Notes under the pieces: model-generated
What the model saw: only the letters and a program-made list of their open reading frames with translations
What the model was told of the DNA's origin: nothing
The model's database searches: none
Program-made: the position numbers and the translations under genes
Source: Nitrospira sp.
GTDB lineage: Bacteria; Nitrospirota; Nitrospiria; Nitrospirales; Nitrospiraceae
NCBI GenBank assembly: GCA_022226935.1
Contig: CP092081.1
Span: forward strand, 854,734-918,733
DNA: 64,000 nt
Direction of reading: 5' to 3'
Shown: one piece after another, positions 1,331 through 30,183 of the stretch
Layout: the number at the start of each line of letters is the position of its first letter
How positions within the stretch are numbered: the stretch's first letter is position 1

Positions 1331-1963
1331 CTAAAACAGGCTCTTGCTCAATTCTCCAGACGGCGAGCTTTCGTTGCCGCTTTTGTCATAGGCTGTCACA
1401 ACGAAGAAATAAGTAGAGCCCAAGGGGAGCGTCAGCCTGGTCGACGTCACATTTCCTACGTCGAAGGTCTGCGTACGGGCACCGGAGCGTGTGCCGACAT
1501 AGACCCGATAGCCTTGCAGGTCCGCTTCCGTGTTGGCATTCCACATCACCGTGACCGTGCCGGTTGAGGTCCCGGACGGAGGCGGCGGCGGAGAGGTGGC
1601 GCTTCCCGTGGGGGACGGCGGTGGCGGCGTGGTGCTGCCGCTGGCAAGGACGGAAAGCGAGACGGGGATGCGCAGAGTTTGTGATCCATTGGGGCCGCTC
1701 TCCACGATATAGACGACACCGGTATAGCTGCCGACATTCATCGTCGAGGTGTTGACCGACACGGTGATCGGGTCAATCTCCGTCGTGATGGTCTGCGTGC
1801 TGCCGTAGGGTGGATTCAACGTCGTCCATGCCTGGTTGGCACTGATGCTGTACGTGCTTTGCTGCGTGCTGGATTTTTGCAAATTGAATATGCCTGTCGC
1901 CGTGTTGCCTTTCGCTACGGTCAGCGAAAGGGCAGGCGGAAAGGCCTGGAGCAAGGGCGTCAA
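1331..1963 (-). CDS. 3' part of a secreted BACON/FN3 protein, out of frame with its 5' part
   Basis: This frame continues the upstream repeat protein after a C10 tract. It holds a third Ig-like unit (about residues 8-107: ALSLTVAKG, a central W, a VGSYTGVVYI strand, closing IPVSLSV), a Pro-rich linker and a C-terminal fibronectin type III domain (MWNANTEADLQGYRVYVG to FFVVTAYDKSGNES). The nearest start is a TTG overlapping the TGA that ends the 5' part, without a Shine-Dalgarno site, so independent translation is unlikely. It is best read as the missing C-terminal third of the gene to its right, restored if the tract loses two bases or gains one. Confidence 0.75.
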   Translation of the reverse strand: MTPLLQAFPPALSLTVAKGNTATGIFNLQKSSTQQSTYSISANQAWTTLNPPYGSTQTITTEIDPITVSVNTSTMNVGSYTGVVYIVESGPNGSQTLRIPVSLSVLASGSTTPPPPSPTGSATSPPPPPSGTSTGTVTVMWNANTEADLQGYRVYVGTRSGARTQTFDVGNVTSTRLTLPLGSTYFFVVTAYDKSGNESSPSGELSKSLF

Positions 1964-3003
1964 CGAGCCGGTCGGCGCCGGGGGGGGGGCGTCGCCGCAG
2001 GCGGAGGAGGAGGGGTTGTCGAGGGTGGAGGCGGTGTCGTTGACGGCGGAGGCGGCGTCGTTGAGGGCGGCGGGGGTGGCGTGGCGCTCCCACTGGCAAG
2101 GACCGAGAGCGACACGGGGATCCGTAAGGTCTGCGACCCATTGGGGCCGCTCTCCACGATATAGACGACACCGGTATAGCTGCCGACATTCAAGGTCGAG
2201 GTGTTGACCGACACGGTGATGGGATCGATTTCAGTGGTAATGGTCTGCGTACTGCCGTAAGGCGGATTCAAGGTCGTCCATGCCTGGTTGGCACTGATGT
2301 AATAGCTGCTCGGTTGAGTACTGGACTTTTGCAGATTGAACACGCCGGTTGCCGTGTTGCCCTTCGCGGCGGTCAGCGAAAGGGCGGCCGGGAAAGCTTT
2401 GAGCATGGGCGACAACGATCCGGTGGGCGGCGGCGGAGGGGGTGTCGCTGCGGGCGGCGGCGGAGGCGTGGTTGACGGCGGCGGGGGAGGTGTCGTTGAA
2501 GGGGGAGGCGGCGGCGTGGTTGATGGCGGGGGCGGCGTCGTTCCGGCTGCCGTCACGGTGGTGGTGACGGGAATGCGCAAGAGGGTCGATATGCCAGGGC
2601 CCGATTCGCCAATGTAGACCACTCCGGAATAGGTGCCCACTCCGAGTCCCATCGCCGAGGTATTCACCGTGACGGTCAGGGAGTCTGTTTCAGTGGTAAT
2701 GGTCTGCGTGCTCCCATAGGCCGGGTTCAGCCAGATCCATCCTTGGTTGGTGCTAATGAGGTAGCTATGTTGCTCCGTGCTTGATTTCTTAAGGCTGACC
2801 GTTCCCGAGACGGTGCCTCCCTGCGCCACGGTGAATGAGAGGGCGCTGGGTGTGCTGACGATATTTTGCGCCAGCGCCTCAGCTCCTCCCACAATCAGAT
2901 CGCACAGCCACAACATCAGCATCAAGACCACAAGATGTCCCGCCGCAGGTCGCCGCATAATGCGTGGTGGATGCTGAATCGGTGTGAAATGCTGTGCCGT
3001 CAT
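1960..3003 (-). CDS. Secreted repeat protein with two BACON-like domains, truncated by a frameshift
   Basis: The start ATG is chosen because CTAAGGGAG lies just upstream; an earlier in-frame ATG (3051) has no such site. Residues 1-46 form a signal peptide with a long hydrophobic core ending ALAQ. Two Ig-like units of about 95 residues follow, resembling BACON domains (ALSFTVAQG, a conserved W, STQTITTE, GTYSGVVYI, IPV). They are separated and followed by TTPPPPPS-type linkers. After the second linker the frame runs into RRRPAR and stops, where the parallel linker would read PPPTGSL. Likely surface-exposed or periplasmic; ligand unknown. The product as sequenced lacks the third Ig unit and the FN3 domain. 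Confidence 0.75.
   Translation of the reverse strand: MTAQHFTPIQHPPRIMRRPAAGHLVVLMLMLWLCDLIVGGAEALAQNIVSTPSALSFTVAQGGTVSGTVSLKKSSTEQHSYLISTNQGWIWLNPAYGSTQTITTETDSLTVTVNTSAMGLGVGTYSGVVYIGESGPGISTLLRIPVTTTVTAAGTTPPPPSTTPPPPPSTTPPPPPSTTPPPPPAATPPPPPPTGSLSPMLKAFPAALSLTAAKGNTATGVFNLQKSSTQPSSYYISANQAWTTLNPPYGSTQTITTEIDPITVSVNTSTLNVGSYTGVVYIVESGPNGSQTLRIPVSLSVLASGSATPPPPPSTTPPPPSTTPPPPSTTPPPPPAATPPPRRRPAR
1980..1989 (-). repeat. C10 homopolymer at the frameshift point
   Basis: Ten cytosines in the coding sense encode part of a Pro linker. Translation through C10 gives PPPRRRPAR and a stop; C11 or C8 would rejoin the two halves of the BACON/FN3 gene. Tracts of this length slip during replication, so it may be a phase-variation switch or a read error. 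Confidence 0.7.
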
Positions 3004-4687: not shown

Positions 4688-5755
4688 TCACCGTGAGCGG
4701 GAGGGGCCGGTCTCTTCTTCATATTCCATGAAGAGTCGTTTGGCTTCCGGGTGCAGGAGATGGGGCTGGCCGTAGGGGATGCCGGCGGTGCGAAACAGCG
4801 GCGTCAACTTTTCGTTCGGGTGCAGGTAGCCGGCTCGCAGCGGAACCGATCGCTTGGTGTGACGGATGAGCGAGCAAGGAGTCGGGCGTATCGCGGTCAG
4901 CCAATCCGCAATGTCCTGCGGATTGCCGATGGAGGCGGACAGGAGGAGGAGACGAGCCTGCGAGGGACAGAAAATCAACGTTTCTTCCCATACGACGCCG
5001 CGCTCCGGATCAGCCAGGTACTGTGATTCATCCATAATCACCAGACCCAATGTGTCCAGACGCACATCGATCTCCCCTCCGGCTGCGTCGTACAGCAGAT
5101 TCCGCAAGATTTCCGTGGTCATGATCAAGAGGGGCGCTTGGCTATGCTCCCGGCGGTCGCCGGTCAGAATGCCGACCTGACCGGGGCCGAACACGCGCGA
5201 GAACTCCGTGAATTTCGTGTTGGAGAGCGCCTTGAGCGGGGAGGTATAGATGACCGTGCGATTTTCCTGAATCGCCCGCTTCGTTGCCTCGATTGCGACA
5301 TAGGTTTTGCCGCTCCCGGTCGGCACGCTGACCACCACATCGGTCTCCGCGAGTTTCGCCAGCGCATCGACCTGCCAGGCATCCGGGATGAACGGTTGCG
5401 GCGGCGGTACCCCGATCCCTGACAACCATTCGTGGAGGGAGACGGGCGGCTCATGGTGGCTGTGGTCGTCAGTTTTGTGCGGGCGCGATGCGGCGGTGGG
5501 GGCTGGGCGAGGGCGCGCCTGGGCGGATCGTGTCTTTTCGATATGCGCCGGTTGCGGCCGGTGAGCCCGTTCCTCAATCAGAGTCTGCAGGTCGGACTCC
5601 AGGCCCGGTCTATTCTCAGCCGAAGCCTGGAGTAGCAGATCGACCAGCTTGCGTTTGCCGGAGCGGAAATGCCGGCTGATCCGCCCCCTCGCCAATCGAT
5701 GCAGCAGAGAGACCGGTTGTTGCATCAACAGCTGTTCGAGTTCGTGAGTGTTCAC
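4688..5755 (-). CDS. SKI2-like helicase, N-terminal (RecA1) half as a separate gene
   Basis: This 355-residue protein holds only the first motor domain. Residues 1-110 are a basic, low-complexity lead. W127/Q128 mark a Q-like motif, VPTGSGKT (144-151) is motif I, TSPLKALSNTKF is Ia, MTTEILRN is Ic, DESQ (242-245) replaces the usual DExH, and SAS (273-275) is motif III. It stops at the linker that normally leads to RecA2. The second motor domain is encoded by the gene immediately UPSTREAM in the same operon, and the two overlap by GTGA (GTG start, TGA stop). So the helicase is split and its halves are in reversed order. Activity presumably needs association of both products. Confidence 0.85.
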   Translation of the reverse strand: MNTHELEQLLMQQPVSLLHRLARGRISRHFRSGKRKLVDLLLQASAENRPGLESDLQTLIEERAHRPQPAHIEKTRSAQARPRPAPTAASRPHKTDDHSHHEPPVSLHEWLSGIGVPPPQPFIPDAWQVDALAKLAETDVVVSVPTGSGKTYVAIEATKRAIQENRTVIYTSPLKALSNTKFTEFSRVFGPGQVGILTGDRREHSQAPLLIMTTEILRNLLYDAAGGEIDVRLDTLGLVIMDESQYLADPERGVVWEETLIFCPSQARLLLLSASIGNPQDIADWLTAIRPTPCSLIRHTKRSVPLRAGYLHPNEKLTPLFRTAGIPYGQPHLLHPEAKRLFMEYEEETGPSRSR

Positions 5756-7614
5756 GGCAGTTCCTCCAAGACGCCCCGGCGCATCGCGGCGATGGCGTGA
5801 TCGGCGGATTCCGCCAGGGACGGATGGGTGGCTTTTAACGTCTTCAACTGAGACAGAAATTCGATGGTGCGCGCAAACAGCCGGAACATGTCGCCTTCAG
5901 CCATGGTCGTCAACCGGGCCAATCCGATCCACGTGAGCGTCTGATCGGACACCCAGCGTTCAGTCAGTGCCGCAACGTCGGCCCGCAGCATCGGCGGCGC
6001 CTCGTGGGGCGTCAAACTCTCGGCCAACTTCCGCACTTGAAAGAGTAGCGTGACGAGCCCGGCGCTTCCACGCGGAAACGAGCCGGGACGATCGTCGTCA
6101 TGGGCAATGCTGGCCATGACGGCGGCCAATAGCGGCGGATCGATGGCGCCAAAGGCTTCAGCCCGAATCAGTTCGGTAATCAGCAGCGAGTGATCGATAC
6201 GAATCAGCCGCGCCCACTCGCCGTCGGCGGTGAGTTGCGCGTTCGCGTTGAGGTACCCGAATCGTTCCAAAACGTCGATGCGCTCTTGGAACCGGTGCCA
6301 CAAACTCGTCTGGAGGGCTTGAATCGATTTGATATGGCGCTGAATTTCCTGGCGCACCCGTGAGGCGCGGGGAAAATCGCGCTGGCAAGCCTGGCGCGAG
6401 GGGCAGGTCGGACAGGCGAAGTCGCCCAAGGTTTGAATGATGGAACTGTCGATCGGGGCTTCTTCGTGCTGATGCGTCAGAATCGGAAGAATCGGCAGCC
6501 GCGGCGGGAGGTCCGTCAGATGATGCGTCAGTTGTTCCAGCGTCTGCGGCGTGCACCAGGGGTAAACCGAGGTTTCCTCGCAGTCGAAGGTACGGTCGAA
6601 GACCTGCGTCACGATGGAGGCCGGGCATTCGTTCAGCGAGCCGCCTTCCCGGAGGAGGGTGACCATCGGCGCATGTTGGCCTTTGCTGCGGTACTGGCGC
6701 AGGATGATCCCGCGTCCGCGGGTGACACCCACCACGCGTCCGGGCGTCAGGAAGTGCAGGCGCGCGGCGACATCGGGCGATTCCTGGCGGGCGAAGGGGC
6801 TGCGGGGTTTCTTGCGTTTGCGGGCCTGTTCGAAGACTTGCCACTGCGTAATCCAATCGGAACAGACGCGAGGTCCGAACGGCTCCATTTCGGCGCGCAG
6901 GCTGTCGAGTTTGGTTTCGAGCACCGCCGTGCGCTGGTTCAGTTGGAATTGCGCGAAGCTTTTGGCCAGGATCGATTGAATCTGTTCGCGCGGATGCGCC
7001 TTGAGCAGGTTCAAGACCATCGGGTAACTGATCACGAACTGGCTGTGAATCGCCTCCGGCTGCCCTGTGAGTCCCTTGGTCAGGACCGTAAGATCAATAT
7101 AGGGCGACGGGGTGATGACGGCGAACCCGACGAGGTCTTTGCCGCGGCGACCGGCGCGGCCGGCCAATTGTTGAATCTCGCTCGCGGTGAGATCGGTAAA
7201 ATCGCGCGCTTTACGGATGCTGGACTGCGTGACCACCACCGTACGAGCAGGAAAGTCCACGCCGGCTGCGAGCGTGGTCGTGGCAAAGACGGCATCCAGC
7301 GACCCCGTGCGCATCAATTCTTCTACCGCGATTTTCCAGGACGGTAAATGTCCGGCATGGTGCGCGGCCACACCGATGCGCTGGACCGTCTCGATCAACG
7401 GGTGTTCGGCAATGCTGGGAAACTGCTCGGTCACCTGCGCCAGCACGCGGGCAATCTGTTCTTGTTGGGCTTTCGGCAGGGTGACCTGACTGCGCTCGAA
7501 GGATTGCATCGCTTCGTCGCAGGCCCGTCTCGAGGTGAGAAAAATGATCGCAGGGGTGAGGTTTCGTTGGCGGAGGGTCGCGACGAGATCAACCGGATGG
7601 ATCGACGGCGGCAT
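5752..7614 (-). CDS. SKI2-like helicase, C-terminal (RecA2 plus accessory) half as a separate gene
   Basis: This 620-residue protein starts at the second motor domain: AIIFLTSRRACDEA (motif IV, about 22-35), AAHHAGHLP (83-91), ATTTLAAGVDFPARTVVV (motif V, 111-128), QLAGRAGRRG (motif VI, 149-158). A long accessory region follows, with a Cys cluster CPTCPSRQAC (401-410) that could bind metal, and a helical C-terminus like SKI2/Mtr4 relatives. There is no Walker A motif, so alone it cannot bind ATP normally. The first 26 bp overlap glgC, and the 3' end overlaps the RecA1-half gene by 4 bp, implying coupled translation of all three. Confidence 0.85.
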   Translation of the reverse strand: MPPSIHPVDLVATLRQRNLTPAIIFLTSRRACDEAMQSFERSQVTLPKAQQEQIARVLAQVTEQFPSIAEHPLIETVQRIGVAAHHAGHLPSWKIAVEELMRTGSLDAVFATTTLAAGVDFPARTVVVTQSSIRKARDFTDLTASEIQQLAGRAGRRGKDLVGFAVITPSPYIDLTVLTKGLTGQPEAIHSQFVISYPMVLNLLKAHPREQIQSILAKSFAQFQLNQRTAVLETKLDSLRAEMEPFGPRVCSDWITQWQVFEQARKRKKPRSPFARQESPDVAARLHFLTPGRVVGVTRGRGIILRQYRSKGQHAPMVTLLREGGSLNECPASIVTQVFDRTFDCEETSVYPWCTPQTLEQLTHHLTDLPPRLPILPILTHQHEEAPIDSSIIQTLGDFACPTCPSRQACQRDFPRASRVRQEIQRHIKSIQALQTSLWHRFQERIDVLERFGYLNANAQLTADGEWARLIRIDHSLLITELIRAEAFGAIDPPLLAAVMASIAHDDDRPGSFPRGSAGLVTLLFQVRKLAESLTPHEAPPMLRADVAALTERWVSDQTLTWIGLARLTTMAEGDMFRLFARTIEFLSQLKTLKATHPSLAESADHAIAAMRRGVLEELP

Positions 7615-29009: not shown

Positions 29010-29390
29010 ATGTGGAAGAAAAATTTCTTATTCCGCGCGCATGAGGCGGCTCCGCTGAAAGAGTCGGAGAACGAGCTGTTCCATGACGACGCTGAACCGG
29101 CCCTGGATAGCGCCGGCCTGCAAATGGAAAAGTTTCTCTCCGTGTGGGTCCAAGGGGAAGGCGAAGACGAAAAGCCCACGATGTATACGAACATGTATGT
29201 GCGTACGGCTACGCTGGATTTCAAAACCCGCGCGGGCTTTCTCCAACCCCTGCAAGGACGCACGCATCAGATCAAGCAGATGTTGACGCCGGAGCAAAAG
29301 GGATTTTTACGCGAGTGGTTGTCCACGACCTCACCTCAAGCCTGGGAAGACTCCGACGATCATTTTCGAACCCTCTTTGATCTCGAGTGA
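29010..29390 (+). CDS. Conserved-looking small soluble protein of unknown function, 126 aa
   Basis: Good ribosome site (GGAGGGTAGGG) and a promoter-like site upstream. Acidic, no signal or membrane segment; two Trp near the C-terminus. The middle (VRTATLDFKTRAGFLQPLQG) looks like a small beta domain. I do not recognise a family. A truncated palindrome begins 10 bases after its stop. Confidence 0.6.
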   Translation: MWKKNFLFRAHEAAPLKESENELFHDDAEPALDSAGLQMEKFLSVWVQGEGEDEKPTMYTNMYVRTATLDFKTRAGFLQPLQGRTHQIKQMLTPEQKGFLREWLSTTSPQAWEDSDDHFRTLFDLE

Positions 29391-29400
29391 TCCGTTTTAG

Positions 29401-29430
29401 CAGGATGCTGAAAACCTCCGCCAGCGGCGT
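29401..29430. repeat. Truncated copy E of the palindromic element
   Basis: CAGGATGCTGAAAA and CCGCCAGCGGCGT match the left arm of copies A-D, then similarity stops. No right arm is found. It sits 10 bases after a stop codon. Confidence 0.75.
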
Positions 29431-29455
29431 CTCGATCGCTTGGCGATCCGTGAAT

Positions 29456-29522
29456 CGTGAAGCGTATCTCGCGAACATGCCGTGGCCCTGTCCTGGAACG
29501 AGAGACGAACGACGCTTCACGA
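29456..29522. repeat. Second short-repeat copy with internal inverted repeat
   Basis: The start is the inverse of the repeat at 4643-4663 (20 of 21 bases). CGTGAAGCG at its left is mirrored by CGCTTCACG at 29514-29522, so the stretch could fold into a stem. It follows directly on truncated element E, as if two repeat families had joined. Confidence 0.5.
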
Positions 29523-29637
29523 ACGACGAAGTGGAGGAACGTGTTGAGCCTCCTGCGGAAATCCATCTGTGTTTTATGTGTCAATTCATCGACGTTCACG
29601 TGCGTTCATCGAATTTCTTCTTCCAGCTAGATTACGC

Positions 29638-30183
29638 ATGAGTCCTCCGACCTGTCTTCTCTTCATTGCCATAGTGGTGGTCGGGTCTGTGTTGTTGCCG
29701 CAGGTACCTGTTTGTGCCTCCGCCACGATCGATGTCTACTATGCTCCGGAAGACCACCCCATCGACCGCGTGGTGGGGCTGTATACCCGGGCGACCAGAT
29801 ACATCTATGTGTCGGTGTATGGTTTGACGGCGCCGTCGGTGGTGAAGGCGTTGGTGGAGGCCAAACATCGCGGCGTCGATGTGCGAGTGATTACCGATCG
29901 CGAGCGTCTGAACGATCCGAAGCAGCATAGCGCCGTGAAGACGTTGCGACTCGCGGGGGTACCCGTCAGGATCAACCGGCATGAGGCCTTGATGCATCTC
30001 AAGCAGGTGGTGATCGACGATAGAATCAACACCTCTGGATCGGCGAACCACACGACCAGCGGCAACCGGTACAATGATGAGCGCCTCGATGTCATCACCG
30101 ATCCGCGGCTGACGGTCAGGGCTCGCGAGAAATTTTTGGCGATGTGGAATGACCACGAACGATTCGTCGTCTGGATGGAGTAA
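29638..30183 (+). CDS. Phospholipase D-family single-HKD nuclease, exported
   Basis: From the chosen ATG the protein has a signal peptide (CLLFIAIVVVGSVLLPQVPVCA) and one HKD motif: H120, K122, D127, followed by SGSAN at 133-137. Single-HKD proteins of this size (181 aa) resemble the Nuc endonuclease of Salmonella plasmids, which dimerises to form the active site. A periplasmic or secreted DNA nuclease or phosphodiesterase is likely. The start is uncertain because no strong ribosome site is visible. The monooxygenase gene follows after 9 bp. Confidence 0.8.
   Translation: MSPPTCLLFIAIVVVGSVLLPQVPVCASATIDVYYAPEDHPIDRVVGLYTRATRYIYVSVYGLTAPSVVKALVEAKHRGVDVRVITDRERLNDPKQHSAVKTLRLAGVPVRINRHEALMHLKQVVIDDRINTSGSANHTTSGNRYNDERLDVITDPRLTVRAREKFLAMWNDHERFVVWME

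Follow-up and report, generated by a model that had tools for sequence, protein, structure and literature searches.

Coding tracts of G or C of the length considered here are known to switch in other bacteria, such as those in bapC of Bordetella pertussis (PMC1891110), in mga of Group A Streptococcus (C8; PMC10330708) and in bifidobacterial pilus genes (PMC9187656). The tracts of bapC (G10/G11) and tcfA in B. pertussis are the closest in kind, being of the same type and length and lying within the coding sequence, where a change of one base toggles between a truncated and a full-length protein (PMC1891110), as it would at the present locus. Bordetella tracts of this length vary within about 23 to 30 generations, and G10-G11 tracts change inside a single culture (PMC1891110). 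In mga, the deletion of one C from a coding poly-C tract (C8 to C7) likewise shifts the frame, but the gene encodes a regulator and the change is reversible, with reversion demonstrated (PMC10330708). In contrast to bapC and tcfA, where mixed tract lengths were recorded within cultures and between strains, the locus described here is known from one assembled sequence, and its tract is not conserved. A further comparison is offered by the singleton frameshifted genes of GeneTack, in which, as here, the break occurs in one genome and both halves match intact relatives; such homology-validated singletons are chiefly sequencing errors or recent indels (PMC3711429). This last class best fits the evidence presented below, and no essential difference separates it from the present gene. 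The literature on Nitrospira yielded nothing direct on BACON domains or phase variation.

The locus lies in a stretch of 64,000 nt, hereafter the window, from Nitrospira sp. (GCA_022226935.1, CP092081.1, positions 854,734-918,733 of the forward strand). A run of ten G on the plus strand, C10 on the minus strand, lies within a Pro-rich linker, where two frames of a single minus-strand gene meet (Table 1). Nearly all named relatives of this gene come from Nitrospira. Its domains are ordered as signal peptide, BACON-like unit 1, linker, unit 2, linker, the break, unit 3 and FN3. The upstream ORF extends to 3051 at its longest start, the conserved ATG being at 3003, and after the tract it reads TPPPRRRPAR before the TGA at 1962-1960. 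The downstream frame is already open before the tract, reads APPPAPTGSLTPLLQ and continues through the third unit and the FN3 domain to 1331. Copies of a 300-nt repeat are spaced 452 nt apart, one base short of a multiple of 3, as predicted by the loss of one base. Tract, frames and domain layout thus bear out the original prediction of one BACON/FN3 repeat protein split at C10.

Table 1. Features at the frame break (positions within the window).
Feature	Position	Strand	Basis
C10 run that breaks the frame, within the linker preceding BACON-like unit 3	1980..1989	-	Sequence; sole break here among 24 genus genes
Upstream frame: signal peptide, BACON-like units 1 and 2, Pro-rich linkers, RRRPAR-stop	1960..3003	-	ORF list, Pfam
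Downstream frame: linker end, BACON-like unit 3, PPPP linker, FN3, stop	1331..1989	-	ORF, Pfam, AlphaFold2, Foldseek
TTGA: upstream stop overlapping TTG (Leu of conserved GSLTP); unlikely start	1960..1963	-	Sequence
Pro-rich linker of 21-24-nt repeats (PPPPSTT units) just before C10	1990..2082	-	Tandem Repeats Finder

The gene product belongs to a family of secreted proteins with BACON-like Ig and FN3 domains. The upstream part matches Pfam BACON_2 with E=3.4e-08, the third unit does so weakly (E=5.6e-04), and an intact orthologue scores 37.5 bits (cut-off 25). The fn3 match in the last segment (E=3.9e-05, 24.2 bits) falls just below the cut-off of 25, while a paralogue reaches 30.3 bits. An AlphaFold2 model of unit 3 and FN3 (mean pLDDT 74) consists of two beta-sandwiches with a disordered linker between them, and Foldseek matched it to HYDIN/CEP192-type Ig and FN3 folds. 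The gene product has an evident signal peptide, and no anchor was identified in it; it is predicted to be a secreted protein in which Pro-rich linkers connect three BACON-like Ig units and a C-terminal FN3. Other Nitrospira BACON/ASH-like Ig repeat proteins with a C-terminal FN3 are alike in domain order, Pro-rich linkers and signal peptide, including an intact three-unit paralogue in the same genome (G000:C1:2405187-2406788, a 638-aa frame); unlike the present gene, all those found are unbroken at the C10 site. The same genome also carries a one-unit paralogue (281983-282579). Species differ in how many BACON-like units they carry, from two to about five, and adjacent units are nearly or fully identical as protein in some genomes (L054, L069, L073; window 1607-2358), which suggests repeat expansion and homogenisation.

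The family is present in all 29 genomes of the genus, and orthologues could be compared at the break in 23 other Nitrospira species with a readable linker before the last unit, together with a copy from a sister genus (G042). A single open frame crosses the site in 23 of 23 congeneric orthologues and in the sister-genus copy. The orthologues of these 23 species carry two to five units, always with the same FN3 at the end. At this site their linkers contain C runs of at most 8, because their Pro codons include CCG, CCT and CCA, which break up the runs. Furthermore, the spacing from Thr to the motif [TSAV][GS]SL is normally six codons (18 nt) in the relatives and 17 nt here, a difference pointing to C11 as the likeliest intact parent state. 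It had been proposed that either C11 or C8 would restore the joined frame; the arithmetic is correct for both, and the conserved linker length fits C11 and disfavours C8. Two apparent breaks among the relatives were dismissed: a second seemingly split orthologue (G028, L067) contains a 100-N assembly gap, and a TGA in the sister-genus copy precedes the start codon.

The part of the gene after the break retains 210 open codons with no decay. Nei-Gojobori counting over 211 codons gave a dN/dS of 0.030 against G024, 0.027 against G017 and 0.039 against G010, with dS of about 1 or more, values that match those between pairs of intact genes (0.028-0.054). Neither relaxed selection nor further lesions were found after the break, and an old pseudogene is ruled out by these ratios. 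The segment, which could not be translated with C10, has thus been kept functional and selected as protein until very recently. Purifying selection of this strength speaks for a frame break that is very recent, reversible or an error.

The original prediction had read the tract as a site of possible phase variation, and the treatment of long C runs in the family does not bear this out. When the Pro codons of each gene were shuffled among its own Pro positions in 24 family genes, C runs of at least 9 proved about 11-fold rarer than expected (1 seen, the present tract counted as C11, against 11.5) and runs of at least 8 about threefold rarer (13 against 40.7); the 24 genes are related and hence not 24 independent tests, although their dS is close to saturation. 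The family therefore apparently avoids long, slippage-prone C runs, which speaks against a maintained contingency tract, as does the absence of the tract from all orthologues: with at most 8 C in the 23 orthologous linkers and long runs depleted, selection has not kept the tract in the relatives. In the whole 4.23-Mb genome, 3 C/G runs of at least 10 occur against about 25 expected by arithmetic for independent bases at 58% GC. The C10 run itself is no statistical surprise within an array of Pro codons; the unusual part is the frame break. An in-frame C11 also lies in a paralogue of G006 (L170, 2555-2565), in the linker that joins its third unit to FN3, so such runs arise in the family from time to time; slippage there would disrupt a gene of this kind at a second location.

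The quality of the assembly bears directly on whether the missing base is real. The 4.23-Mb genome forms a single scaffold whose joins are each exactly 100 N long. One of these (L146, 9660-9759; G000:C1:1247660-1247759) interrupts a clpC-like reading frame, with unrelated sequence beyond the clpC-like start; it is a scaffold join, so that the "single contig" does not amount to a closed genome. Frameshift burden was judged against a syntenic short-read-type assembly (G017). Throughout the 64-kb window the other well-conserved genes are unbroken relative to that assembly, except at one site where 29 extra nt near 29434 break the frame of a gene (29120-30180) that is whole there. In about 263 kb more, the flagged frame changes numbered nine in one direction and five in the other, mostly at gene starts, and none of those inspected fell on a long homopolymer. 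The run-length spectra of C/G and A/T are equal in the two genomes. The two other C/G runs of at least 10, a C11 at G000:C1:1187745 and a C10 at 3356980, lie in intact ORFs, which on reading the sequence we take to be heparinase-like and FabH-like genes, and no second broken poly-C gene was identified among the ten runs of at least 9 in the genome. Since the genome as a whole showed neither homopolymer compression nor surplus frameshifts at homopolymers, a genome-wide homopolymer error is unsupported and there is no general assembly fault, yet a single local miscall at C10 may have occurred. Isolated miscalls are common in tracts this long, and Taq yields 9, 10 and 11 bases from a G10 tract (PMC1891110).

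The explanation that we consider probable is a lineage-specific C11 run from which one C was lost, through either a recent unselected slip or a miscall. An 11-C run, a slippage-prone sequence, would have been created in the last linker as its Pro codons drifted synonymously (CCC CCC CCC CCG). The assembled allele, one C shorter, would encode a product truncated after unit 2, without unit 3 and FN3. The missing C would reflect slippage in the sequenced population, which we infer as the cause if the loss is cellular, or a miscall of the tract by one base. If the loss took place in cells, these are predicted to export a protein that consists of units 1 and 2 with the tail RRRPAR, and reversion is plausible by analogy with tract variation in Bordetella. 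The data cannot tell a slip that is very recent and probably unselected from a miscall by one base; the two are about equally probable, and neither alone reaches an even chance. Against the miscall stand the lack of a raised frameshift burden, the matching homopolymer spectra and the intact ORFs at the other C/G runs of at least 10; against the unselected slip, the presence of the C10 allele as consensus needs drift, a bottleneck or a benefit.

A selected contingency locus, in which the tract would slip back and forth between C11, encoding the full-length product, and C10, the off or short state, and so vary a putatively exposed protein, is unlikely in our assessment. The tract does lie within the coding part of a gene for a secreted repeat protein, at a frame junction where a change of one base would alter expression, the part after it is still under selection, and the bacterial switches cited above have coding tracts of comparable length; however, no orthologue conserves the tract, the family is depleted in long C runs, and no second broken poly-C gene was identified among the ten runs of at least 9 in the genome. 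Equally unlikely is the variant in which a real C10/C11 switch newly arose in this species, toggling the last Ig unit and FN3 against a family background that avoids such runs. The positive evidence for a possible selected switch is the tract itself. Less probable still is a real and fixed split, leaving a truncated protein of units 1 and 2 or a young pseudogene whose function is covered by the intact 638-aa paralogue. Two-unit orthologues are indeed common, but they always retain FN3, and a downstream frame of 210 open codons with a dN/dS of about 0.03 and no decay argues against this reading.

Recoding on C10, by -1 ribosomal frameshifting or transcriptional slippage that yields some full-length protein, is about as improbable, or slightly more so. 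The tRNA-Pro is prone to a +1 shift at CCC-C, but here such a shift leads to the third frame rather than the right one. The tract does include C CCC CCC, and homopolymers of at least 8 can cause polymerase slippage (PMC3711429); nevertheless, recoding would be expected to use a conserved site, and all the relatives are in frame without one. The last alternative, two separate genes coupled through the TTGA overlap, has almost no probability left. The overlap of stop and TTG that had been noted is real, but its reading as a start does not stand up: the TTG is an internal Leu codon of the conserved GSLTP in the relatives, no Shine-Dalgarno sequence was seen before the TTG at 1963, and the second product would carry no signal peptide. 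Moreover, all 24 relatives have a single gene, which rules out two joined genes.

The preferred reading, a C11 run that lost one base by a slip or a miscall, makes the locus a case of how a fresh or false frame break, with selection intact after the break and an unconserved tract, can be told from a maintained switch. It also draws attention to the avoidance of long C runs in the Pro-rich linkers of the family. If the switch were real, it would represent an uncommon homopolymer phase variation in an environmental nitrifier, a free-living nitrite oxidiser, and it could bear on aggregation or phage exposure.

Two further features of the window were recorded. Between 97 and 1049, fragments resembling an alpha/beta-hydrolase were recognised by eye in several frames, without a Pfam match; they are absent at the syntenic place in G017 and adjoin a tRNA-Arg (1140-1215), and this is perhaps a decayed insertion beside the tRNA gene. 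At 4688-7614 on the minus strand, an SF2 helicase is encoded by two overlapping genes whose order is permuted, with Helicase_C and DSHCT (5752-7614) ahead of the DEAD part (4688-5755), and the region is syntenic and open in G017.
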